Below, piece after piece: positions 4,501 through 58,424 of a DNA stretch of 64,000 bases. The DNA is taken from NCBI RefSeq assembly GCF_024757985.1, contig NZ_CP103289.1, forward strand, positions 2,170,001 through 2,234,000. Direction: 5' to 3'. Below the pieces are notes generated by a model. It was not told the DNA's origin. It searched no databases and saw only the letters and a list, made by a program, of their open reading frames with translations. How positions within the stretch are numbered: position 1 is the stretch's first letter; each line of letters starts with the position of its first letter. Position numbers and translations under genes: made by a program. Source of the stretch: Cellulomonas sp. NS3. GTDB taxonomy: Bacteria; Actinomycetota; Actinomycetes; Actinomycetales; Cellulomonadaceae.

Positions 4501-7452
4501 GAGCGCCGCCGTCGACGCCGACCCGGCCGGGGCAGGGCCGGACGCCGTCGCGACGGCGGCGGCCAGCACGGCCCACCCGCCGGCCTCGGCCGCGCGGCGC
4601 GCGTGCTCGTCGTGCCCGGACGCCTCGGCCGCCGCCCCGAGCCGCGGCGCGTCGTCCGCCGCAGCCCCCCGGGCGAGCACCGGGGCGAGCAGCACGCCGA
4701 CCGCGCCCGCCGCGGCGACCCCGACCGCGAGCGTGCTGCCCTGAGCTGCGGACCCGAGGGCACGCTCCAGACTCACGACGGCGAGCGCGCCGAGCGGCGC
4801 GACCGCCCCGGCGGCGACGCGCGCCGAGCGCGGCACCACCCGGCGGCCGCGCACGGCGACCAGCACGGAGCCGGCGACCGCGAGCACGGCGAGCAGCACG
4901 AGCAGCACGCGCCGCGGGCCCGAGCCGTCCGGTGTCGACGCGGTCCACGCCCACGGCCACGCCGTGACGAGGGCGACGGCCGCTGCCGCCAGCCACGCCA
5001 CCCGGTCCGCCGGCGCAGCCGCGTGCCGCCGCACGGCGAGCAGCGCGCAGCCCGCGACGACGACGCACGCCGTGGAGGTCCGCGCCACCGTCGGGTCGAG
5101 CCCGGCCGCGACGAGGGCGACGATCGCGGCGGACCAGCCGAGCAGCGCGCCCGCGGCGAGCGCGGCGGCGCGCAGGGCCACGGGGCGCGCGAGCCACCGC
5201 CGGGTCCCCACGCCGAGCGCCGCCGCCGCTGCGAGCGCCGCGGCGAGCGGCCCGAGCACCCCCTGGGACGCGGCGAGGGCGCCGAGCACCGCCACGACCA
5301 CCACCGTGCGCGCGGGGGCGCTCACGTCGAGCACAGGCCGCACACCCGCCGCGTCACCCGCGAACGCGAGCGCCGCCAGGGCCAGCAGCAGGACGACGAG
5401 ACCGGTGCCGACGAGTCCGGGCCACCCGCTCGCCAGCGCGACGGGGGTCGCGACGAGCACCACGACAGCGATCCACGACCCGGCCCGGGCCTGCCCGCCC
5501 GCAGCTCGTGCGAGGGCGACGGTCGCGCCCGCGCCGAGCACGAGCGCGACCACCGTCGCCGGCCCCGGGGAGACGTCCGGGTCGACGAGGAAGCCTGCGG
5601 TGACGAGGGGGAGCGCGAGGACCGTCGGGACGCTCGCGACCAGCGCGACCGCGTGCGCGCCCTGCACGGCCCACGGGCCGCCGCCGAGCCCGCCGCGAGC
5701 GAGGCGAGCGCGACGAGCGAGGCGCAGGCCGAGCGTGACCAGCGTCGGAGCCAGCGGCACCAGCGCCCACAGGGCCGCGGCCTCCACCACCCCGGCCCGG
5801 GCGAGCAGCACGACCACCGCGAGCGCGGCGACCGCCGCGAGGGCGCCCGACACCGTCGCCCAGGCGCGCGCCCCACCTCCGAAGCCGGCGAACGTGGGCG
5901 ACGCAGAGGACGCTGCCGCGACGGTCCACGGCCCGGAGCCCGGGTCCGCGACGGTCCACGGCCCGGAGCCCGGGTCCGGGGCGGACGGCGCCGTCGCGCG
6001 GGTCCCGTCGGCCGGCGTCGCCGCGGCCGGGTCGTGCGCCGGCTCGGTGGTCGAGCCGGCATCGGCTGTGGCTCGGTGCTCGGCGACCGAGGGTGCGGTC
6101 CCGAGCACCTCGTCGGCGAGTGCGGTCGGGGTGCCAGGCGCACCGGACCCGGCGCTCCCCGACTCCGTACCGACCGGCGCGACCGGCCTCGCGCCGGGGC
6201 TCGCGACCGGGTCGCCGTCCGCGTGCACGGTGACCCGGGTCGCCGCGAGGCGGGCCTGGACGGCGGCGAGCACCGAGGCAGCCACGAGGGCCGCGACGGA
6301 CCCCCACGCAGGGGCGTCCGGGGCGTCCCAGCCCGCGCCGTCGACGAGTGCTGCGACCGCGGCGACGAGTGCGACGACGGCGACGAGGGCCCAGGCCAGC
6401 GCGCCGAGGACCGCACGCTCGACCGCGTGGCGCTTCGAGGCGGTGGCCCGGCCCGCGAACCGGGCGGTGGTCAGCGCGAGCGCCACGCAGGCGAGCCCGG
6501 CGAACCCGGCCACCGAGGGCACGAGCGGTGCGAGCAGCAGCGGCGCGACCGGGACGAGGACCGCGCCGGAGAGCGTGCCGACCCGCAGCCGCGCGCGCAC
6601 GCCCCACACCCCGAGCGCGGTGCCGCACACGAGCGCCGAGACGCCCGCGTACGCGGCCGGCTCGGCCGGTCGCACGAGCCCGGTCGCCGGCACGGCCCAC
6701 GCGTCGAGCAGCAGCAGCACGGCGGCCAGCCCGCCGACGGCCTCGGCGCTCGACGTCAGGCCCGACCGGCGCAGCCGGCCGGCGACGGCGAAGACCACGA
6801 CGGTGGCGACGGCGACGGCGAGGGCGCGGCCCGCCAGCGGGATCCAGCCCCAGCTGAAGAGGAGGAACACGATGCTCGCCGCCGCGAGCAGGCTCGCGCC
6901 GAGCACCTGCAGCACGGTCTGCACCCGCCAGCGCGGGCGCGGTGCACGCGCCGGCGGGGCGGTCCGCCGTGGCGGCCCGGCGTCGGCGGCACGGACCGGC
7001 ACGCCCGCGGGCGCGGTGGGCCGGGGAGGGGCGGTCCGGGCGCGGGGTGGAGCGGGTGGTCCCGAGTACCCCAGGCGAGGCCCCGAGGGAGCGACCGAGG
7101 GCTGGTGCGCGGCGGACCGGGCCTGCGCCGCAGCGCCGCGACCCGCGGTCGCGTGCGCGGCCGCGGCTCGTCGCCGCGCGTCCGCCGCGGCCTGCTGCTG
7201 GCGGCCACGCATCCCGGCGAGGTGCGCCTGACGGGCGTCCAGCGCACCCACCGCACGCTGCGAGAGCGACCAGAGCTCGCGCGCGTCCGACCCCGCCAGG
7301 TCGAGCCCGCAGCCGCTGCAGCGCGCGGTCGTGAGCGTCGCGGCGCACGAGGGGCACGCGGTCGCGTCGGCCAGGAGGCGCCGGACGACGGCGTACGGGT
7401 CGGGGCTCGGGCTCGGGCCCTGCGCGAGAGGCATGGCGGCATCCTGGTCCAT
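1525..7452 (-). CDS. Giant multi-spanning membrane protein, SCO7613 C-terminal-like
   Basis: A predicted integral membrane protein of about 1975 residues, function unknown; the architecture resembles actinobacterial 'SCO7613 C-terminal domain' membrane proteins. The N-terminus has a zinc ribbon (CPSC-x8-CSGC), then a hydrophilic Ala/Arg/Pro-rich stretch, then dozens of hydrophobic Ala/Val/Leu segments to the C-terminus. Two hydrophilic linkers interrupt the membrane part, one holding a 10-residue tandem repeat. A module with the motifs VE-x-WSLPAA and VVPT-x-VAV occurs twice, so the protein grew by internal duplication. The Met at 7452 is chosen because the zinc ribbon starts soon after; Met at 7434 is possible. 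No strong ribosome binding site is visible. It is convergent with dop and divergent from pup. Confidence 0.75.
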   Translation of the reverse strand: MDQDAAMPLAQGPSPSPDPYAVVRRLLADATACPSCAATLTTARCSGCGLDLAGSDARELWSLSQRAVGALDARQAHLAGMRGRQQQAAADARRRAAAAHATAGRGAAAQARSAAHQPSVAPSGPRLGYSGPPAPPRARTAPPRPTAPAGVPVRAADAGPPRRTAPPARAPRPRWRVQTVLQVLGASLLAAASIVFLLFSWGWIPLAGRALAVAVATVVVFAVAGRLRRSGLTSSAEAVGGLAAVLLLLDAWAVPATGLVRPAEPAAYAGVSALVCGTALGVWGVRARLRVGTLSGAVLVPVAPLLLAPLVPSVAGFAGLACVALALTTARFAGRATASKRHAVERAVLGALAWALVAVVALVAAVAALVDGAGWDAPDAPAWGSVAALVAASVLAAVQARLAATRVTVHADGDPVASPGARPVAPVGTESGSAGSGAPGTPTALADEVLGTAPSVAEHRATADAGSTTEPAHDPAAATPADGTRATAPSAPDPGSGPWTVADPGSGPWTVAAASSASPTFAGFGGGARAWATVSGALAAVAALAVVVLLARAGVVEAAALWALVPLAPTLVTLGLRLARRARLARGGLGGGPWAVQGAHAVALVASVPTVLALPLVTAGFLVDPDVSPGPATVVALVLGAGATVALARAAGGQARAGSWIAVVVLVATPVALASGWPGLVGTGLVVLLLALAALAFAGDAAGVRPVLDVSAPARTVVVVAVLGALAASQGVLGPLAAALAAAAALGVGTRRWLARPVALRAAALAAGALLGWSAAIVALVAAGLDPTVARTSTACVVVAGCALLAVRRHAAAPADRVAWLAAAAVALVTAWPWAWTASTPDGSGPRRVLLVLLAVLAVAGSVLVAVRGRRVVPRSARVAAGAVAPLGALAVVSLERALGSAAQGSTLAVGVAAAGAVGVLLAPVLARGAAADDAPRLGAAAEASGHDEHARRAAEAGGWAVLAAAVATASGPAPAGSASTAALALLVAAITAGAWSLAPGRRWARWWTLALGTVASWVLLDAGDVGTPEAYLAPAGLVLAVVGARRWRSAADGDVALLGAGLALASVPSALLGGELAAGLPRDAVAGLVGAVLVGLVEVPAVRSRPGAGTAALQPRHVLSLLGALLALLGPWGHVLAVAQPPAVGGSADPLMVDVEAWSLPAAAVVAAAAWRLARDPSAAHLRVAAWGAWVVAAAAVVPTVVAVRDSGAGLVRTLVVLAVGAALALGTARRTSAARERADLAVVGLVIAGLATLAGAATLTQPPGDVLVAVLGLLALAVAVRRAAAGTAPWWGSAGALLVLPVALQDDVWRGVTAGGVAAALVGCAALVRTGGADPAGADGTPGPTAPASAAPGTSSRGITPNTHVLLLATAGALALLGPARLATAAAGGPGATLAGVEMWSLPAALLLAGALRELTRQAAPVAAIARRPGVWLVTAVAVVPTAVAVTAPTSSSLSLGRTLALLAVGATVAVVGVTGAAPPRRVLATSLVPLGLTVAGLAWLASAAAAPSDPPPSVVLAAVGLLVTGVGTVLVARADRDASWAFLGAFLVLPLVLTPAPWGGPVAGLLVATVALGAGRGLARAGVTARARAVPLAVAGLLAAAVALRHTGDAASAAPGPRVELLALAAALVLAATAALLAWSWPFAGPSPRSWGAWPVALAAAAPSLAAAVDAPADLARPGAVLAVGSGLAVVGAARAARGRRVVAAPVAPAGADRGAGLRAGAVVPGVGTEELGGVPAGARVAGQGSVPADASGANPGASTADTSVARSGAVTAGSTTGRSSGVSASAGAGASSSAAALWGVPAVQVRAVGVVLATAAALLAAVRGGTVPVDAPLVLLGATLLAVGVLALRSDAGASSWACLAPGLLLALVVPVTTGWWEPTMWRLVLVLVGATAAVVVGAVRRWQAPFVLGAAALAVVAVVQASPAAVAAMQVVEWWVVLALGGAVLLGLGLTYERRLREAREAARFVAAMR
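5918..5977. repeat. 30-bp perfect tandem repeat inside the membrane-protein gene
   Basis: Two identical 30-bp units (5918-5947 and 5948-5977) lie head to tail. They encode a duplicated 10-residue block, DPGSGPWTVA, in a hydrophilic linker of the giant membrane protein. The unit length keeps the frame. Confidence 0.9.
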
Positions 7453-49767: not shown

Positions 49768-49784
49768 CCGCGTCCGGAGCCGCG

Positions 49785-50363
49785 TCAGCGGAGGGCAGGG
49801 CCGGCCAGGCGGAGCGACCCGTCGGCCACACGGCTGTCGATCACGTCGGCGACCGCGACCGGGTCCGCCGCAGCGTCCGTCAGGGGATGGCGGGCGGCGA
49901 TGCCGGACGTCGCGAGCTCCCGGTGCATCCGTCGGGCGGCTCCTGGGTCCGTGAAGCCGTGCCCGGTGCGGGCCGCGACCCGCGCGACGCACGTCTCCAC
50001 CGGCGGCAGCAGGACCGCGTAGTGCAGGTCCGGCACGACCTCGGCGAAGAGGTCGAGGAACCACGGCCCGACGACACCGTCGTAGACGACGTGCAGCCCG
50101 CCGGCGACCAGGTGCGTCGTGGCCGCTGCGGCGGCCTCGAGCACGACCCGGTTCTGCGTGTGCGCCTCGGGCCGCCACGGCGCGATCGCACCCCGGCGGA
50201 GGAACGCGAAGAAGGTGTCGCCGACGACGAGCGCCGAGGGGTCGCGGCGCTCGGCGAGGAGGGCGGCCACGGTCGACTTGCCCGCACCCGGCGGACCGGT
50301 CACGACGAGGAGCTCGGGCACGCACCGATACTGCCCGTCCGGGTGCGCGGCGGTCGCGCTCAT
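49785..50363 (-). CDS. P-loop ATPase/kinase-like protein
   Basis: About 192 residues (AAA_33/shikimate-kinase-like). Walker A is GPPGAGKS (residues 23-30), near the N-terminus, with VGDTFFAFLRRG after it and an Arg-rich lid-like stretch (TCVARVAARTGHGFTDPGAARRMH). Likely a small-molecule or nucleoside kinase; the substrate is unknown. The start is uncertain: ATG at 50363, or GTG at 50321 directly before PELLVVTGPPG. It follows the response regulator gene on the same strand and may share its transcript. Confidence 0.7.
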   Translation of the reverse strand: MSATAAHPDGQYRCVPELLVVTGPPGAGKSTVAALLAERRDPSALVVGDTFFAFLRRGAIAPWRPEAHTQNRVVLEAAAAATTHLVAGGLHVVYDGVVGPWFLDLFAEVVPDLHYAVLLPPVETCVARVAARTGHGFTDPGAARRMHRELATSGIAARHPLTDAAADPVAVADVIDSRVADGSLRLAGPALR

Positions 50364-50432
50364 TCTCGTGTCGGCGTCCAGACGCGCGGGCACGTCGGGG
50401 ACCGGGCGACCCGGCTCCCGTGCGCCTGCGCG

Positions 50433-51113
50433 TCAGCGCGTGCGCGAGTCGTGCGCGCGGATCGCGAGCTGGACGCGGTTCTCGAGCCCGAGCTTCGCGA
50501 GCGCGCTCGACAGGTGGACCTTCACGCTACCGACCGACAGGAACAGCCGCTCGGCGATCTCCGCGTTCCCGAGCCCCTCGGCGACCGCCATCGCCACCGC
50601 GTGCTCGCGCTCGGTCAGCCCCTCGGTGCGCAGGTCGGGCGCAGGGGTCGCCGGTGCGGGCGACTGCGCGGTGACGTGCTCGATGAGCTGGTGGAGCACG
50701 CTCGGGGAGACGGTGGGCTGACCGTCCGCTGCCGTGCGGACCGCCTCCACGATCGCGTCCGGGGCGGTGTGCTTGAGCAGGAAGCCCACGGCGCCGGCGC
50801 GCAGCGCGTCGAGGACGACCGCATCCGTGCGGAACGTCGTGAGCACGATGACCGCAGGGATGCCCCGGTCGGGCGCGCTGCGCAGCGCGCGCAACGCCGT
50901 GACGCCGTCTACGCGCGGCATCCGGACGTCGAGGAGGACGACGTCGGGACGGTGCTCGGCGACCGCGGCGCCGAGCTCGTCCCCGTCCGCGGCCTCCCCG
51001 ACGACCGTCAGGTCACCCGCACCGGCCAGCATCAGCCGCAGGCCGGCGCGCACGAGCGGGTCGTCGTCGACGAGCAGGACGCGGACCGTCTCGGGACGTG
51101 CGCGCGCCGTCAC
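50433..51113 (-). CDS. NarL/LuxR-type response regulator
   Basis: 226 residues. The receiver domain has the acidic pocket VDDDP (Asp16-18) and phosphoacceptor Asp62 (VVLLDVRMPRVDG); the C-terminal LuxR HTH runs LTEREHAVAMAVAEGLGNAEIA to VHLSSALAKLGL. The GTG overlaps the kinase stop (GTGA). Candidate DNA sites are the direct repeats at 52409-52442 in front of the divergent ABC exporter. Confidence 0.92.
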   Translation of the reverse strand: MTARARPETVRVLLVDDDPLVRAGLRLMLAGAGDLTVVGEAADGDELGAAVAEHRPDVVLLDVRMPRVDGVTALRALRSAPDRGIPAVIVLTTFRTDAVVLDALRAGAVGFLLKHTAPDAIVEAVRTAADGQPTVSPSVLHQLIEHVTAQSPAPATPAPDLRTEGLTEREHAVAMAVAEGLGNAEIAERLFLSVGSVKVHLSSALAKLGLENRVQLAIRAHDSRTR

Positions 51114-52354
51114 GGCCCGCCCGCCGGGAGCTCGACGACCAGGCAGAAGCGCCCGTCGTGGACGCCCGCGTCGAGGTGCCCGCCCTCGAGCCGCACCCGC
51201 TCGGCGAGGCCCACGAGGCCACGGCCGGTACCGGGGATCTCCGCGGAGGTGACCCCCACGGGGATCGGGTTGCTCACCTCGAGCCGCACCGTGCCGTCCG
51301 AGGACTCGACCGCGACGCTCACCTCGGCGCCCGGCGCGTGCTTGCGCGCGTTCGTCAGCCCCTCCTGCAGGCTGCGGTACACCGTGCGCTGCGTCGTGTC
51401 GCGGACCTCGCCCGCCGGGACGTCCACCCGCACCTCGACCGACTCGCCGGCCCCTGTGGCCTCCGCGACGAGCGCGTGGATGTCGTCGAGGCGCGGCTGC
51501 GGGCGCTGCGTCGCCGCGGACGGCGTCCCGGTCTCCTCCTCACGGAGGACCAGGAGCAGGTCCCGCAGGTCCTCGATCGCTCGGTGGGCGCTGTCCCGGA
51601 TCACGACGGCGGCGTCGTGGACCTCGGCGGCGGTCGGCGAGCGCTCCGGGGGCACCTCCGGTCGCGTGCGGTACTCGAGCGCCCCGGCGTGCACGGACAG
51701 CAGCGAGACCCGGTGCGCCAGCACGTCGTGCATCTCGCGGGCGATGCGCTCGCGCTCCTCCCGGCGTGTCTGGGTCAGACGTTCCTCGTACCGGTCGTGC
51801 TCGAGGACGGCCGCCGCGCGCAGGCCCTCGACGACCTGCGCGCGGGACCGGGCGAGCAGCCCCAGGCTCAGCACGAGCGCGTACAGGAGCGGGATCATGA
51901 TCAGCCACACGAGCCACGGCATGCCCGGCAGCGGGAAGAACGCGTGGTACGGCAGCGCGGCAGCAACGGTCGCCGCCGTGATGGTCACCGACGAGGAGGG
52001 GCGCGCGAGGCGACCCACGCGGTGCACGACGACGAGCGCCGCGAAGGTGGCCGAGACGGCGAGCGCACCCGGCACCGCGCCGAGGATCGCGGCCGCGCGG
52101 GGGAACCGGCGGGTCCACCACAGGAGCAGGCACGAGACGACCCCGAGCACCCGGTCGACCGGCCAGAACCAGTCGGGCACGCCCGTGTACTCGGGCGCGC
52201 TCGTGAACCCGAGCTCGAACCAGACGAGGACGGCGATCCCGAACAGGGTGCAGTCGGACGCCCACTCGGCGCGTGTCCGGGGCACCGCGAACGGGGACAG
52301 CCGCAGGACCGCGCGGCCGGCGCGCTCGCGCGTCGTCGCCCGGGTCGCGGCCAT
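51110..52354 (-). CDS. Two-component sensor histidine kinase (HisKA_3)
   Basis: 414 residues. The N-terminal half holds about five or six hydrophobic segments. The dimerisation/phosphoacceptor motif is ERERIAREMHDVLAHRVSLL with His209. The ATPase domain has NARKHAPGAEV (N box) and GRGLVGLAERVRLEGG. The ATG at 52354 lies 7 bases after a -10, suggesting a leaderless mRNA. The trigger is unknown; such NarL pairs beside ABC-2 exporters often sense cell-envelope stress or antimicrobial compounds. Confidence 0.92.
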   Translation of the reverse strand: MAATRATTRERAGRAVLRLSPFAVPRTRAEWASDCTLFGIAVLVWFELGFTSAPEYTGVPDWFWPVDRVLGVVSCLLLWWTRRFPRAAAILGAVPGALAVSATFAALVVVHRVGRLARPSSSVTITAATVAAALPYHAFFPLPGMPWLVWLIMIPLLYALVLSLGLLARSRAQVVEGLRAAAVLEHDRYEERLTQTRREERERIAREMHDVLAHRVSLLSVHAGALEYRTRPEVPPERSPTAAEVHDAAVVIRDSAHRAIEDLRDLLLVLREEETGTPSAATQRPQPRLDDIHALVAEATGAGESVEVRVDVPAGEVRDTTQRTVYRSLQEGLTNARKHAPGAEVSVAVESSDGTVRLEVSNPIPVGVTSAEIPGTGRGLVGLAERVRLEGGHLDAGVHDGRFCLVVELPAGGP

Positions 52355-52361
52355 GACGTCG

Positions 52362-52390
52362 ATCGTACGGACGCCTGGCCTACGGGTCAC
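52362..52390 (-). promoter_or_regulatory. Promoter of the two-component operon
   Basis: On the minus strand -35 GTGACC (52385-52390) and -10 TACGAT (52362-52367) are 17 bases apart. The kinase ATG follows the -10 by 7 bases. Confidence 0.5.
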
Positions 52391-52408
52391 CGGTCGCGGC
52401 ACGAGGTA

Positions 52409-52442
52409 TGGCCGGTCGGCAACGCGGGCTGGCCGATCGGCC
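52409..52442 (+). promoter_or_regulatory. 21-bp-spaced direct repeat, candidate response-regulator site
   Basis: TGGCCGGTCGGC (52409-52420) and TGGCCGATCGGC (52430-52441) start 21 bp apart, two helical turns. The second copy lies within a perfect 12-bp palindrome GGCCGATCGGCC (52431-52442). They sit 39 bases before the ABC ATPase ATG and upstream of the divergent kinase promoter, a usual place for a NarL-type regulator. Confidence 0.5.
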
Positions 52443-52479
52443 GAGGCGGCGGACGGCGTGGCAAGGTCACGCTGGGGCC

Positions 52480-53268
52480 ATGACGACGACGCACCCCGCA
52501 CCACCGGACGTCTGGGCGCTCGAGCTGCGCGGCCTGCGCCGCGAGTTCGGCGACAAGATCGCGGTCGACGACGTCGACCTCCGGGTCCCGCCCGGCGCCT
52601 TCTACGGCCTCGTCGGGCCGAACGGCGCCGGCAAGACCACGGCGTTGTCGATGGCGGTCGGCCTCCTGCGGCCCACGGCCGGCACCGCGTACGTCCAGGG
52701 GATCGACGTGTGGGCCGACCCGGTCGGCGCCAAGCAGCGCCTGGGCGTCCTGCCCGACGGTCTCGCGCTGCCCGAGCGCCTCACCGGCGGCGAGCTGCTC
52801 ACCTACTGGGGCCGGTTCCGCTCCCTGCCCCGGGACGTGGTCGCGGCCCGCACCGCGGAGCTGCTGCGCGTCCTCGAGCTCGAGGAGGCCGAGGAGCTCG
52901 GCACGCTCGTCGGGGAGTACTCGACCGGGATGCGCAAGAAGATCGGCCTCGCGACCGCGCTGCTGCACGCCCCGCGGGTGCTCGTCCTCGACGAACCGTA
53001 CGAGGCGGTCGACCCGGTCTCCGCGCGGGTCCTGACGCGCATCCTGCGCCGCTTCACGGAGGGGGGCGGCTCCGTCGTGATCTCGAGCCACGTCATGGCG
53101 ATGGTCGAGCAGCTCTGCGACCGCGTCGCGATCGTGGTCCGCGGCGCCGTCGTGGCCGACGGCACGCTCGACGAGGTGCGCCGGGGGAGCAGCCTCGACG
53201 ACCGCTTCGTGGAGCTCGCGGGCGGCGCCGACGCGGTCGAGGAGGAGCTGACGTGGATCGGGGGCTGA
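52480..53268 (+). CDS. ABC exporter ATP-binding protein
   Basis: 262-residue ATPase. Walker A GPNGAGKTT, signature YSTGMRKKIGLATALL (the usual deviant form in ABC-2 exporters), Walker B VLVLDEPYEAVDP and H-loop ISSHVM. It drives the membrane protein encoded by the overlapping next gene. Divergent from the two-component system, which probably controls it. The cargo is unknown. Confidence 0.92.
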   Translation: MTTTHPAPPDVWALELRGLRREFGDKIAVDDVDLRVPPGAFYGLVGPNGAGKTTALSMAVGLLRPTAGTAYVQGIDVWADPVGAKQRLGVLPDGLALPERLTGGELLTYWGRFRSLPRDVVAARTAELLRVLELEEAEELGTLVGEYSTGMRKKIGLATALLHAPRVLVLDEPYEAVDPVSARVLTRILRRFTEGGGSVVISSHVMAMVEQLCDRVAIVVRGAVVADGTLDEVRRGSSLDDRFVELAGGADAVEEELTWIGG

Positions 53269-54947
53269 TCTCGCTCAAGCTCACGCTGCTGCGCAACAGC
53301 TCCAGGACGCTGCGCCGGGTCGGGTGGGCCGCGGGTGCGCTGCTCGTCGTGGCGACCTGGGCCGGTGCCGCGCTCGCGGCCGACGACGGCGTACGGCACG
53401 AGGTCCTGGCGCTCGGGTTCGCGTGCTGGTGGCTCGGCGGCGCGATCGGTCCGGTGCTCATGAGCGGGGCCGGGAGCGTGCGGGCCGACTGGTTCGCCCT
53501 GCTCCCGATCACGCGCGCGACCCTGGGGCGGGGCCTGCTCGCCACGGTCTTCGTCAGCGTCGCGTCGGGCTTCGTCCTCCTCGCGCTCCTGGCGGCGGGA
53601 GTGCACGCGTTCGCCCTCGCGCCGACCGCCGTGGTCGTGGTGCTGATCGGCGCGCCCCTCGTGTGGGTCCTCGTCGTGGTCACCTCCCGCCTTGTGTACG
53701 GGCTGCTCGGGGCCGCGATGCGGACGCGGCTCGGCATCGAGATCGCGGGAGTCCAGTTCGGGCTGGTGTTCGCCGTCTGGTTCACGGGCTGGATCGTCGT
53801 CCAGGTCGTCGTGCAGAGCGTGCCGCGTCTGCTCCAGGACGGGCTGCCGGCCGGGCCGGTCACGAGCGTGCTCGACGCCCTGCCGAGCGCCTGGGTCCTC
53901 CACGCGGTCGACCGAGCGGCCAGCGGGGACTGGCGCGGCGCCGGCGGCGTGCTGCTCGCGCTCGCGGGCCTCGACCTCGTCGTCGTGGTCGCCGCGATCC
54001 CGCTGCTCACCCCCCGCAGCGCGGCGGTCTCCCGCCGCCGGGGCCGCCGGCGCTCGGCCCGCCTCGTCGCCGGCGCGGGCCTCCTGCCGGCGACCCCGAC
54101 CGGGGCGGTCGCCGCGAAGGAGGTGCGGCAGTGGCGCCGGGACCCGTGGCGTGCGCTCGAGAGCAGCACGGCCGTGTGGACCGGCGTGGCCATCGGCGGC
54201 TTCGCGCTCGTGGGGGAGGACACGGCACCGGTCGCGGCCTTCGCGGGCCTGATCGTCGCGTTCATGCTCGGGCTCAGCGGGTGCAACGTGTACGGCCAGG
54301 ACGGCTCGGCGGTCTGGCAGAACGTCGTCGGTGAGAGCTCCGGCTCAGTCCGCGCCGACGTACGCGGGCGGCAGTGGGCGATGCTCCTCGTGTTCGTGCC
54401 GCGCGCCCTGGTGGTCAGCGTGGTGTTCGTGCTGCTGGCCCGGAGCTGGTGGGTGATCCCGGTCCTCGTGGCGGCGATGCCCGCCGTCTTCGGTGCGGCC
54501 GTCGGGTCCGCGATCCTCGTCTCGGCGGTGGGCGTCTCGCCCGGTGTCGACCCGCGGCGCCGCGTCGGACCCAACGACGCGAACGGGAACATCTCGCTGC
54601 ACGTCTGGGTCGTCCTGCTGCTCGTCGTCGTCGCCGTCGCGCCGACCGTCGCGGTGATCGTGTGGGCCGTCACCGCGGGCGGGCCGGGACCCCTCGCCGT
54701 GGCCGTCGCGACCGGCGTGGTGAACGGGGTGGCGGCGTCGTGGCTCCTCGGGCGGGTCGCGATCGGGTACCTGGAGCCCCGGATGGTCGACGTGTTCAGC
54801 CGGATCCGCTACGGCCAGGTCTTCCGGACGCCGGACGCGCGCGGGCCGCTGACCTGGGTCGAGCAGGCGACGCTCAAGGGCGAGCAGCAGATGCACGCCC
54901 AGAAGCAGAAGGCGCGCGAGGAGCGGCTCGCCCGCGCGCGCCGGTGA
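53253..54947 (+). CDS. ABC exporter membrane subunit
   Basis: 564-residue integral membrane protein with roughly twelve hydrophobic segments in two halves, split by a basic stretch (SRRRGRRRSARL) and a soluble patch (AAKEVRQWRRDPWRALESS). The polar C-terminus ends in a charged helix (QMHAQKQKAREERLARARR). The GTG at 53253 has a GGAGGAG site and overlaps the ATPase gene by 16 bases. It is the transport partner of that ATPase; the substrate is unknown. Confidence 0.85.
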   Translation: MDRGLISLKLTLLRNSSRTLRRVGWAAGALLVVATWAGAALAADDGVRHEVLALGFACWWLGGAIGPVLMSGAGSVRADWFALLPITRATLGRGLLATVFVSVASGFVLLALLAAGVHAFALAPTAVVVVLIGAPLVWVLVVVTSRLVYGLLGAAMRTRLGIEIAGVQFGLVFAVWFTGWIVVQVVVQSVPRLLQDGLPAGPVTSVLDALPSAWVLHAVDRAASGDWRGAGGVLLALAGLDLVVVVAAIPLLTPRSAAVSRRRGRRRSARLVAGAGLLPATPTGAVAAKEVRQWRRDPWRALESSTAVWTGVAIGGFALVGEDTAPVAAFAGLIVAFMLGLSGCNVYGQDGSAVWQNVVGESSGSVRADVRGRQWAMLLVFVPRALVVSVVFVLLARSWWVIPVLVAAMPAVFGAAVGSAILVSAVGVSPGVDPRRRVGPNDANGNISLHVWVVLLLVVVAVAPTVAVIVWAVTAGGPGPLAVAVATGVVNGVAASWLLGRVAIGYLEPRMVDVFSRIRYGQVFRTPDARGPLTWVEQATLKGEQQMHAQKQKAREERLARARR

Positions 54948-54953
54948 GCGGCC

Positions 54954-54991
54954 CGCGGGTCGACGTCCGACGATATTGACGTCGACCCGCG
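54954..54991. terminator. 13-bp perfect inverted repeat between exporter and rtcB
   Basis: Arms CGCGGGTCGACGT (54954-54966) and ACGTCGACCCGCG (54979-54991) with a 12-base AT-containing loop lie 6 bases after the exporter stop. Probably a terminator; an operator for rtcB, which starts 40 bases further on, is also possible. Confidence 0.6.
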
Positions 54992-55031: not shown

Positions 55032-56258
55032 ATGATGTCCAGCCCGTTCCCGGTCGCCCTGGCCGGAGCCGCCGCACCCACCCTGATGTGGGCCCACGAG
55101 CACGAGGTCGAGCCGCAGGCTCTCCAGCAGCTGCGCAACATCGCGTCGCTGCCGTGGGTCGAGGGCCTGCGCGTGATGCCCGACGTGCACCTCGGCAAGG
55201 GGGCCACCGTCGGCAGCGTCATCGCGATGCGCGACGCGGTCAGCCCCAACGCCGTCGGCGTCGACATCGGCTGCGGGATGATCGGCGTCCGCACGAGCCT
55301 CACGGCGGCGGATCTGCCCGACGACCTGCACGCGATCCGCACGCGCATCGAGCAGGCCGTCCCGGTGGGCTTCCACGCGCACGACGAGCCCGTCGACCTG
55401 CGCCGGCTCCGCCCGGTCAACGGACCGGCGGGTCGTGAGCGGCTCAAGGGCGCGGACGCGTTCTGGGACCGCTTCGGCGGGCTGCACCGCACGGTCCAGC
55501 AGCTCGAGGCCCGGGCCCGCAAGCAGCTCGGGACCCTCGGCGGCGGCAACCACTTCATCGAGCTCTGCCTCGACGAGTCCGACCAGGTGTGGCTGCAGCT
55601 GCACAGCGGCTCGCGCAACATCGGCAAGGAGCTCGCAGAGCGGCACGTCGCGATCGCGAAGACGCTCGAGCACAACCAGCGCATCGTCGACCGCGAGCTC
55701 GCGGTGTTCCTCGCCGGGACCCCGGAGATGGACGCGTACCTGAACGACCTGTGGTGGGCGCAGGAGTACGCCGCGCGCTCGCGTGCGGTGATGATGGCGC
55801 TCGTCGTGCAGGCCGTGCGGGACTCGTTCCCGGACAGGGACATCACGTTCGACGAGGCGACCAACTGCCACCACAACTACGTCAAGAAGGAGATCATCGA
55901 CGGCGCCGAGCTCATCGTGACCCGCAAGGGCGCGATCCGAGCCGGGTCCGGCGAGATGGGGCTGATCCCCGGGTCGATGGGGACGGGCTCGTACGTGGTG
56001 CGTGGTCTCGGCAACCCGGCGTCGTTCCAGTCGGCGTCGCACGGGGCCGGGCGGCGGATGTCGCGGACCGCGGCGAAGAAGCGGTTCACGGTCGAGGACC
56101 TCGCGGCCCAGACCGCGGGCGTCGAGTGCCGCAAGGACGCCGGGGTGGTCGACGAGATCCCGGGGGCCTACAAGGACCTCGAGTCCGTGATCGCGGCGCA
56201 GACCGACCTCGTCGAGGTCGTCGCCCGGTTGCGGACGATCGTCTGCGTCAAGGGCTGA
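55032..56258 (+). CDS. rtcB: RNA-splicing ligase RtcB
   Basis: Mn/GTP-dependent ligase that joins 2',3'-cyclic phosphate or 3'-phosphate RNA ends to 5'-OH ends in tRNA and mRNA repair. 408 residues. Metal ligands include Cys81 (GVDIGCGMIG), His174 (GGGNHFIE), His191 (LHSGSRNIG) and the HHNYV pair near 280; the guanylated residue is His337 (SASHGAGRRMSR). A GAGGAGGT site precedes the ATG. No archease or rtcA is next to it. A duplicated piece of its 3' end lies at 57320-57424. Confidence 0.96.
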   Translation: MMSSPFPVALAGAAAPTLMWAHEHEVEPQALQQLRNIASLPWVEGLRVMPDVHLGKGATVGSVIAMRDAVSPNAVGVDIGCGMIGVRTSLTAADLPDDLHAIRTRIEQAVPVGFHAHDEPVDLRRLRPVNGPAGRERLKGADAFWDRFGGLHRTVQQLEARARKQLGTLGGGNHFIELCLDESDQVWLQLHSGSRNIGKELAERHVAIAKTLEHNQRIVDRELAVFLAGTPEMDAYLNDLWWAQEYAARSRAVMMALVVQAVRDSFPDRDITFDEATNCHHNYVKKEIIDGAELIVTRKGAIRAGSGEMGLIPGSMGTGSYVVRGLGNPASFQSASHGAGRRMSRTAAKKRFTVEDLAAQTAGVECRKDAGVVDEIPGAYKDLESVIAAQTDLVEVVARLRTIVCVKG

Positions 56259-56276
56259 GGCGGCACGCAGCATCGT

Positions 56277-56314
56277 GAGGGGGCCCGGCGCGCACAGGTG
56301 CGCCGGGCCCCCTC
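56277..56314. terminator. rtcB terminator, perfect 15-bp stem
   Basis: Arms at 56277-56291 and 56300-56314 are perfectly complementary with an 8-base loop. It follows the rtcB stop by 18 bases and faces the end of the convergent DUF1028 gene. A decayed copy lies at about 57398-57430. Confidence 0.85.
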
Positions 56315-56377
56315 GAGCCGCGCCACCCGCACGCAACCGCAGACGGGCGCGCGGCTCGCCGGCAATGGCGGAGTCGA

Positions 56378-57265
56378 TCAGCCGGCCACCTCGGGCGACG
56401 TCCTCACCAGCGAGATCAGCTGTTCGGTCGCGGCCTCCTCCAGAGCGCCGTTGCCCGCCGAGCGGCGGAGACGCCCGATCGCGGCGGGTTCCAGACGGAC
56501 CAGCACCCGTGCCGGGGCGACGGCCTCGTCGACGCGGCCGGCGCGCAGCAACGCCAGCACCTGGGCTCCGAGACAGACGGGGTCCTCGGGCGCCATGCGG
56601 AGCGCCTCCCCGACGGCCACGAGGTCCGCGTAGGAGCCGTGCTCCCGGAGGGTGCGCGCGAGCACCGCGTGGGCTCGGTGCGCGCGGTGCAGCGAGCTGA
56701 GCCTCTCGATCGGCGCCCGGTCCTGGTCCACGCGCAGATCCTGGAGCTCGTCGCGTTCTGCGACCAGCAGCGCAGCCGACATCCGGCCCCGCACGTCACC
56801 GCCGAGCTCGTCCGAGCGGGTCAACGCGTCGAGCAGTGCGGGTGCCAGCGGTCCACGCGCCATGCTGTCCACGAACGCGGTGACGCTCGCCTCCGGCACG
56901 TGCTCGCGTTCCATCAGGTTCGCCACCGCGCACACCCCGACGCCGTGCACGGCTTCGACGTACGGCTCGAGATCGGCACCGGAGTGGCTCGCGGTGCGGC
57001 CTTGTGCGTCGACGACCGCGACCTGCGCATCAGGTGGGAGACCGGCGGCCTCCAGGCCGTCGATGAGCTCCTGCGCCGACACACCCTGCTCGAGGCGACG
57101 GCGGATCGTCGGCCGGAGGCTCTGCGGTGCCCCGCCCTGGACGACGGCTGCACCGGCGCCCGGCACGACGACCGGCACGCGGGCCCCTACTGCCAGGACG
57201 AAGCTCGCGGTCGCGACCCCGACCGCGCCCGTCCGGTCGTCCCGGGCCACGATCGAGAACGTCAT
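56378..57265 (-). CDS. DUF1028 domain protein
   Basis: 295 residues. The N-terminal DUF1028 domain (MTFSIVARDDRTGAVGVATASF, VPGAGAAVVQGGAP, VVDAQGRTASHSG, CAVANLM) belongs to an Ntn-hydrolase-like family of unknown activity. The C-terminal part, rich in Arg/Leu/Ala helices (ALRMAPEDPVCLGAQVLALLRAG), resembles a peptidoglycan-binding/TPR-like tail. A very good GGAGGT site precedes the ATG at 57265. It lies alone on the minus strand, flanked by two direct copies of the rtcB 3' end, which suggests it was inserted here. Confidence 0.85.
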   Translation of the reverse strand: MTFSIVARDDRTGAVGVATASFVLAVGARVPVVVPGAGAAVVQGGAPQSLRPTIRRRLEQGVSAQELIDGLEAAGLPPDAQVAVVDAQGRTASHSGADLEPYVEAVHGVGVCAVANLMEREHVPEASVTAFVDSMARGPLAPALLDALTRSDELGGDVRGRMSAALLVAERDELQDLRVDQDRAPIERLSSLHRAHRAHAVLARTLREHGSYADLVAVGEALRMAPEDPVCLGAQVLALLRAGRVDEAVAPARVLVRLEPAAIGRLRRSAGNGALEEAATEQLISLVRTSPEVAG

Positions 57266-57319
57266 CGAGCACCTCCCTGCAGTCGGGTCGTCATGCCAGA
57301 GGACGATGCCACGTGCCCG

Positions 57320-57424
57320 CAGACGGACCGCGTCGACGTGGTGTCCGGGCTGGGGATGGTCGTCTGTGTCCAGGGATGAGCCGGCACGCACCATCATGGG
57401 AGGCCCGGCGCGCGCAGGTGCGCC
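57320..57424 (+). pseudogene. Remnant of a second rtcB 3' end plus terminator
   Basis: This stretch aligns with 56199-56304 at about 80 percent by hand count, with one single-base gap. It encodes PQTDRVDVVSGLGMVVCVQG and a stop, against AQTDLVEVVARLRTIVCVKG and a stop in rtcB, and continues into the terminator, which has lost part of its right arm. There is no further rtcB sequence upstream; the DUF1028 gene stands there instead. Confidence 0.75.
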
Positions 57425-57518
57425 CCCTCACCCGTCCACTACCCGCGGTAGGCGCACCGAACCGCCGCCCTTCGACCCACCCGCGCCGGTCCGTCCGGCC
57501 CCACCGCCGGAGGCACCC

Positions 57519-58424
57519 GTGCGTGAGCTCGTCGTCCTCGGCACGTCGTCCAACGTGCCGACCCGGACCCGCAACCACAACGGCTACCTGCTGCGCTGGG
57601 ACGGCGCGCCGCACGGGGACGGCATCCTGTTCGACCCGGGTGAGGGCACCCAGCGCCAACTCACGCACGCGGGCGTCCCGGCCACGGCGATCACCCGCAT
57701 CTGCCTCACGCACGTGCACGGCGACCACTGCTACGGCCTGCCGGGCGTGCTCTCGCGCATGGTCCTCGACGGGGTGCAGCGTCCCGTCGAGCTGCACTAC
57801 CCGGCGTCGGGCGAGGACGTGGTCCGAGCGCTCGTCGGGCTCGCGACGCCCGGGCTCGACCTGCGGCTGCGCCCGCACGGCGGGCCCGGCGAGGTGGCCG
57901 CGGGGCTCGAGGTCGTCGCGCTGCGGCACCGGATCGAGACGTACGGGTACCGGCTCGTCGAGCCCGACGGGCGCTCGCTCGTCCCGGAACGGCTCGCCGC
58001 CGCGGGGATCACCGGGCCGGACGTCGGCCGGCTGCAGCGCGAGGGCGAGCTGCGCAGCGTGCGCCTGGCGGACGTGAGCGTGCCGCGGCGCGGGCAGAGC
58101 GTCGCCGTCGTGATGGACACCGCGGAGTGCGCGGGCGCCGAGCAGCTGTCCGACGGCGTGGACCTGCTGCTCGTCGAGAGCACGTTCGGGGCGGACACCG
58201 CGGAGCTCGCCGAGACGTACCTGCACCTCACGGCGGCGCAGGCGGGTGCCCTCGCGGCGCGGTCCGGCGCGCGGACGACCGTGCTCACGCACTTCTCGTC
58301 GCGGTACGTGGACGTCGCGCCGCTGCTGGAGCAGGCCCGGGCGGCTGCTCCCGGGGCGCAGATCACGGCCGCCGACGACCTCGACCGCGTGCCGCTCCCG
58401 CCCCGGCGCCCGCACGACGCCTGA
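57519..58424 (+). CDS. rnz: Ribonuclease Z (metallo-beta-lactamase fold)
   Basis: Zinc endonuclease that trims tRNA 3' ends. 301 residues, the usual short form. The start VRELVVLGTSSNVPTRTRN and the metal motif LTHVHGDH (His65, His67, Asp69, His70) followed by CYGLPGVLSR are RNase Z marks; AVVMDTAE and VLTHFSSRY supply later ligands. The GTG has a GGAGG site 5 bases upstream. Another metal-dependent hydrolase of the same fold cannot be fully excluded. Convergent with the DksA-like gene, 6 bases apart. Confidence 0.88.
   Translation: MRELVVLGTSSNVPTRTRNHNGYLLRWDGAPHGDGILFDPGEGTQRQLTHAGVPATAITRICLTHVHGDHCYGLPGVLSRMVLDGVQRPVELHYPASGEDVVRALVGLATPGLDLRLRPHGGPGEVAAGLEVVALRHRIETYGYRLVEPDGRSLVPERLAAAGITGPDVGRLQREGELRSVRLADVSVPRRGQSVAVVMDTAECAGAEQLSDGVDLLLVESTFGADTAELAETYLHLTAAQAGALAARSGARTTVLTHFSSRYVDVAPLLEQARAAAPGAQITAADDLDRVPLPPRRPHDA

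Follow-up and report, generated by a model that had tools for sequence, protein, structure and literature searches.

Of 60 clones from conjugation experiments in Escherichia coli, 56 gave the product diagnostic of a duplicated lacZ end. Sequencing of 14 clones revealed duplications of 109–950 bp, which were attributed to a circular molecule integrating by single crossover (PMC3240628). Homology-facilitated illegitimate recombination has been proposed for the T6SS immunity arrays of Vibrio cholerae (PMC5361080). Variable segments flanked by repeats are common in E. coli, S. aureus, and S. pyogenes, with 66–94% of the repeats shorter than 30 bp (PMC2884548). Transposed Arabidopsis genes can also have flanking repeats, which were explained by integration of a circle; for 13 of the 18 genes whose repeats exceed 30 bp, the orthologous target region contained the repeat (PMC2869330).

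We analyzed a 64,000-nucleotide stretch of the Cellulomonas sp. NS3 genome (hereafter the window), in which a DUF1028 gene lies between rtcB and rnz, with a copy of the rtcB 3' end on either side. The features are as follows:

55032..56258, plus strand: rtcB, intact, 408 aa, tRNA-splicing ligase RtcB family (PF01139, 419 bits)
56197..56304, plus strand: repeat copy 1, the last 19 codons of rtcB, its stop, and most of the hairpin (81.5% to 57318–57424)
56305..57317, no strand: segment missing from C. cellasea, about 1.0 kb with one gene (alignment gap from 56311 to 57318)
56312..56377, minus strand: short sequence downstream of DUF1028, foldable as a minus-strand hairpin (from folding)
56378..57265, minus strand: DUF1028 gene, 295 aa, with its own ribosome binding site, GC3 0.878 (PF06267, 155.1 bits)
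57318..57424, plus strand: repeat copy 2, a relic of the 3' end of rtcB with its hairpin, decayed (15 private substitutions)
57425..57518, no strand: repeat–rnz spacer, colinear with the C. cellasea spacer (score 45.5, reached by 0 of 1000 shuffles)
57519..58424, plus strand: rnz, ribonuclease Z (NF000805, 439.8 bits, cut-off 416)

As in the E. coli account (PMC3240628), the insert is flanked by a direct duplication of a homologous gene end, and the outcome at the rtcB end fits a single crossover or homology-facilitated illegitimate recombination. In contrast to that system of laboratory plasmid and lacZ, the insert here is a natural single gene, and our searches found no donor carrying rtcB next to DUF1028. 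The T6SS arrays (PMC5361080) are similar in that a new module joins a homologous anchor and older parts are shifted downstream, but those modules are effector–immunity sets whereas this is a lone DUF1028 gene. The repeat-flanked segments of PMC2884548 share with this locus a small variable segment between direct repeats and an empty site in a relative, although most of their repeats are far shorter than the 108 positions of the rtcB-end repeat. The Arabidopsis genes (PMC2869330) are likewise flanked by repeats of the target region, the difference being the plant genome. The event looks like an old single-gene insertion of an ordinary, already known kind. Our best reading, in which we place about half of our confidence, is that roughly 1 kb of foreign DNA was added through the rtcB 3' end near the time of the split from C. 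cellasea.

The direct repeat is real, and lies beyond the DUF1028 gene in the same orientation as the rtcB 3' end, as the first-pass annotation had reported at about 80% identity. Gapped blastn aligned 56197–56304 with 57318–57424 at 81.5% over 108 columns (102 bits), and the ungapped match of 56197–56285 to 57318–57406 is 78% over 89 nt at a spacing of 1121. Local alignment of the pair scores 66.5, while none of 1000 shuffles that preserve dinucleotides exceeded 23.5, and the segment is bordered by direct repeats as an insertion of this type predicts. The repeat contains the last 19 sense codons of rtcB (20 had been counted), the stop, and the 3' hairpin. What had been called a terminator is a strong hairpin (−46.2 kcal/mol) lacking a T run, and promoter and terminator scans found nothing. 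An apparent extension of copy 1 past the hairpin into the rtcB–rnz spacer was dismissed as chance, its score being reached by 766 of 1000 shuffles. The DUF1028 gene was correctly placed on the opposite strand with its own ribosome binding site: GGGAGGTG is plain in the minus-strand sequence 4 nt upstream of the ATG. Downstream of this gene, the predicted fold of 56305–56377 has an energy of −43.4 kcal/mol, matched by 10 of 200 shuffles (z −1.7), and the first 7 nt of the missing segment still align with the C. cellasea hairpin. The remainder, 56312–56377, has no significant likeness to the rtcB–rnz spacer.

Within 1.064 Mb of the genome, 32 direct-repeat pairs lying 0.3–6 kb apart reach 55 bits. 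The rtcB-end repeat ranks 15th of these by score, and only four pairs, this one included, are at least 80% identical. Many of the pairs that outscore it are long and less alike, as tandem paralogs would be. Five of the 31 other pairs were read by hand, three of them falling in coding sequence, two with a clear common frame and one with a weak one, and two being non-coding. When searched for in C. cellasea, the two non-coding pairs gave scattered matches and no simple empty site. One non-coding direct repeat, L209:1760–2672 (G000:C1:41760–42672), is 82% over 153 columns with its copies 762 bp apart; it has hairpin-like inverted stretches, and C. cellasea has a 92% match to 86 bp of it at G001:C13:74055. 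Another, L213:13928–18701 (G000:C1:133928–138701), is 82% over 107 columns with its copies 4.7 kb apart, begins with GGTTGACAGC, and may represent copied promoters.

Information on the site before or without DUF1028 comes from one sister species, Cellulomonas cellasea. In strain NBRC 3753 (locus L046; taken to be genome G001, whose rtcB coordinates agree) there is no DUF1028 gene, rtcB lies directly before rnz, and the segment is present once: rtcB ends at about 7174 and is followed by one hairpin, and rnz starts at 7331. The alignment of the window to C. cellasea stops at 56311 and restarts at 57318, both ends falling on one C. cellasea stretch. There is no break between rtcB and copy 1, nor between copy 2 and the common rnz spacer, which is homologous between the two species (0 of 1000 shuffles). 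The first-pass annotation had predicted a single 105-bp segment in a strain lacking DUF1028, and C. cellasea has that arrangement; the proposed insertion with target duplication gains support from this single-copy, DUF1028-free rtcB–rnz site. The rtcB product is 97–98% identical to the two extein parts of C. cellasea RtcB, and copy 1, which is the copy in use, differs from C. cellasea at 6 of 108 aligned sites. Apart from this genome, C. cellasea alone was seen to have rtcB and rnz as neighbors. Among 28 other rnz loci, none of the 26 with upstream sequence has rtcB there; among 80 rtcB loci with 0.5–5 kb downstream each, only the C. cellasea locus has rnz, and a further set of rtcB loci with short flanks showed rnz nearby in 0 of 29.

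Under the favored reading, a foreign fragment of about 1 kb with one DUF1028 gene would have been added between rtcB and rnz about when this lineage parted from C. cellasea. Whether small and circular or linear with homology at one end, the incoming DNA would have used the 3' end of rtcB as its way in, through a single crossover or illegitimate recombination assisted by homology, either bringing a copy of the last 19 codons and hairpin or joining the chromosome inside that stretch. In this way rtcB would have retained its whole 3' end as copy 1, leaving a second 3' end, copy 2, on the rnz side, where, having no job, it would decay at about the neutral rate while DUF1028 remained intact. No junction homology is visible at the insertion. 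The same flanking repeat would also result from a plain target duplication, in which Ku-dependent end joining ligated the foreign piece after fill-in of a break staggered by about 108 nt, and the genome does encode Ku (PF02735, 174.5 bits). However, a stagger of about 108 nt is in our judgment long and no junction feature points to end joining, making this route improbable. If the favored insertion is correct, the locus is a clean and roughly datable case in which one gene came to lie next to an RNA-ligase gene and no mobile element is apparent.

Copy 2 carries most of the change. A three-way comparison assigns 15 private substitutions to copy 2, four to copy 1, and two to C. cellasea with no three-state sites, although three sequences give branch lengths only and the pattern does not decide whether C. 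cellasea is a hybrid produced by loss. The 15 substitutions of copy 2 fall in 107 sites, and the 12 coding ones are distributed 5/2/5 by codon position, with 8 of the 12 altered codons changing the amino acid. The terminal VCVKG reads VCVQG, replacing with Gln a Lys that we take to matter in RtcB. Copy 2 has proportionally more changes in its coding part (12/62) than in the rest (3/45), a difference that is not significant (Fisher P 0.09). There are also two indels in the 107 nt, and the hairpin z score is −5.8 in copy 1 and −3.4 in C. cellasea compared with −0.3 in copy 2. With its hairpin broken and little codon-position bias, copy 2 is a decaying relic that has drifted as non-coding DNA. 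At four sites C. cellasea shares the state of copy 2 against copy 1, which we counted against the insertion reading.

The age of the duplication was gauged against four-fold sites pooled over 17 gene frames, picked partly by an automatic composition filter instead of annotation, in the region colinear between the window and C. cellasea. Of 4921 such sites, 1049 have diverged (JC 0.25, or 0.125 per lineage), giving a neutral expectation of 13.4 changes in 107 sites since the split, compared with 15 observed (P of at least 15, 0.37). Four-fold divergence of single genes ranges from 0.079 to 0.297, corresponding to 4.5 to 20.2 expected changes, and the dating is loose. Among local yardsticks, rnz predicts 13.2 changes and the C part of rtcB 11.5, while the rnz spacer (10.9; P of at least 15, 0.14) and the N part of rtcB (7.4; P of at least 15, 0.009) would place the duplication before the split. 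On these figures the duplication dates from around the species split, or possibly from earlier.

An older event would be compatible with a different history, in which the insertion predates the split and C. cellasea subsequently lost DUF1028 cleanly by recombination between the copies. The 15 private substitutions of copy 2 exceed the pooled, spacer, and rtcB N part expectations, and direct repeats favor such deletions; of the three species surveyed, E. coli and S. pyogenes, but not S. aureus, have an excess of empty loci at repeat-flanked variable segments (PMC2884548). We gave this history more weight because the local yardsticks lean towards an older event. C. cellasea, however, has the copy-1 state at 15 sites together with the whole hairpin, so that the crossover would have had to occur at or beyond the hairpin end, or before copy 2 decayed. 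DUF1028 is also absent from five other genomes of the genus, though these are without this rtcB and rnz. Parsimony does not separate insertion from loss because no outgroup locus has rtcB beside rnz. The suggestion made at first pass that the repeat would permit loss by recombination stands as one way to read C. cellasea, the direction being unproven from one sister species. We consider loss in the sister species less likely than insertion and, taken by itself, doubtful while still deserving consideration.

The retention in copy 2 of an rtcB 3' end, in the right orientation and before rnz, could also be accounted for by tandem duplication of a unit of rtcB and DUF1028 followed by deletion of most of the second rtcB. 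The left end of copy 2 is nevertheless sharp at 57318 with no more rtcB sequence upstream, and no such intermediate occurs in the loci examined, apart from a partial second rtcB match (50 residues, 54%) in Nocardia araoensis (L054:9994–10140), 3.8 kb downstream of a full rtcB; this course of events seems to us highly improbable. The sharp end and the non-coding drift of copy 2 lend no support to the earlier idea that DUF1028 replaced most of a second rtcB. Two neighboring full rtcB genes were found at none of the loci examined, and a second rtcB was rejected as the main reading on the grounds of the sharp end and this absence of paired genes.

Repeats spanning a gene 3' end and hairpin resemble integrase attachment sites. 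The segment might accordingly be viewed as the remnant of a site-specific mobile element that used the rtcB 3' end as its attachment site, with the repeats as attL and attR. The 1.0-kb segment, however, holds no Pfam family besides DUF1028: it contains no integrase, and the five other ORFs overlapping it are without a Pfam family. No rtcB 3'-end duplicate comparable to this one was found at 109 rtcB loci, the best match scoring 35.6 bits compared with 102 here, in scans of about 0.4–4.9 kb downstream that would miss longer islands (the loci include C. cellasea, and some species are probably represented twice). DUF1028 has no relative in phage records and no close one in viral contigs, and no tRNA lies within the window. 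Having found no integrase, phage relative, tRNA, or reuse of the site within the flanks, we rejected a mobile element and think it very unlikely to be the source.

The DUF1028 protein scores 155.1 bits against a Pfam gathering threshold of 26.2, placing it in the family, and has one PDB relative by sequence, 2imh (E 1.3e-11). Its gene, with a GC3 of 0.878, is atypical in composition, the 5th percentile being 0.889 among 138 local ORFs chosen by a composition filter, and is probably foreign in origin. Among seven genomes of the genus it occurs only in its own, with no match in the other six. In the family sample it is found in 18 of 221 genomes including its own, at no more than 46% identity elsewhere. 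The order sample has matches at E ≤ 0.001 in 81 of 396 genomes (best full-length match 44%, in G273), and the class sample at ≤ 1e-20 in 44 of 394 (best full-length match 42%). Plasmid relatives, in 49 records, are all below 60% identity. A literature search on DUF1028 found no paper. The relative in G273 has C-terminal TPR-like repeats just below the Pfam cut-off, and its gene follows cobN.

The DUF1028 reading frame is intact over 888 nt. At the rate indicated by the two indels in copy 2, neutral DNA of this length and equal age would escape a frameshift with a probability of about 0.004, a rough figure. Neutral simulations under two mutation models (0.125 changes per site) left 14% or 28% of runs free of stops, so that substitutions alone do not prove selection. 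The absence of frameshifts is the stronger argument and argues for selection on DUF1028 if copy 2 is of the same age. The spare rtcB end serves as a built-in clock, having decayed about as neutral DNA does since the split while DUF1028 kept its frame, which suggests that the DUF1028 protein is useful to the host.

We place very little belief in the idea that single foreign genes preferentially enter this lineage at the rtcB 3' end and hairpin. Were that the case, genes could be added without an integrase and without harm to rtcB, and the variable 5 kb upstream and the C. cellasea rtcB intein would likewise point to a locus of unusual mobility. Immediately upstream of rtcB, about 5.2 kb (49783–54948) with histidine kinase and ABC transporter ORFs is without a C. 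cellasea counterpart, about 0.9 kb of other sequence lying there instead, and is a second variable segment adjoining rtcB. About 40 bp before rtcB, two 14-bp arms separated by 10 bp form a perfect inverted repeat (CGCGGGTCGACGTC / GACGTCGACCCGCG; 54954–54991) that is possibly an operator; in C. cellasea its left arm is degenerate and its right arm mostly retained.

The C. cellasea rtcB itself has an in-frame insert after about residue 279 (L046:5838–6780) that is missing from the rtcB of the window. The insert has a LAGLIDADG_3 match and an intein-splicing Pfam match below its cut-off, and NCBIfam already includes intein-containing RtcB families. In three relatives, rtcB is seemingly interrupted, split, or internally deleted (G105:C1:14215–17347, G106:C1:13668–14887, and G100:C8:364122–364558).
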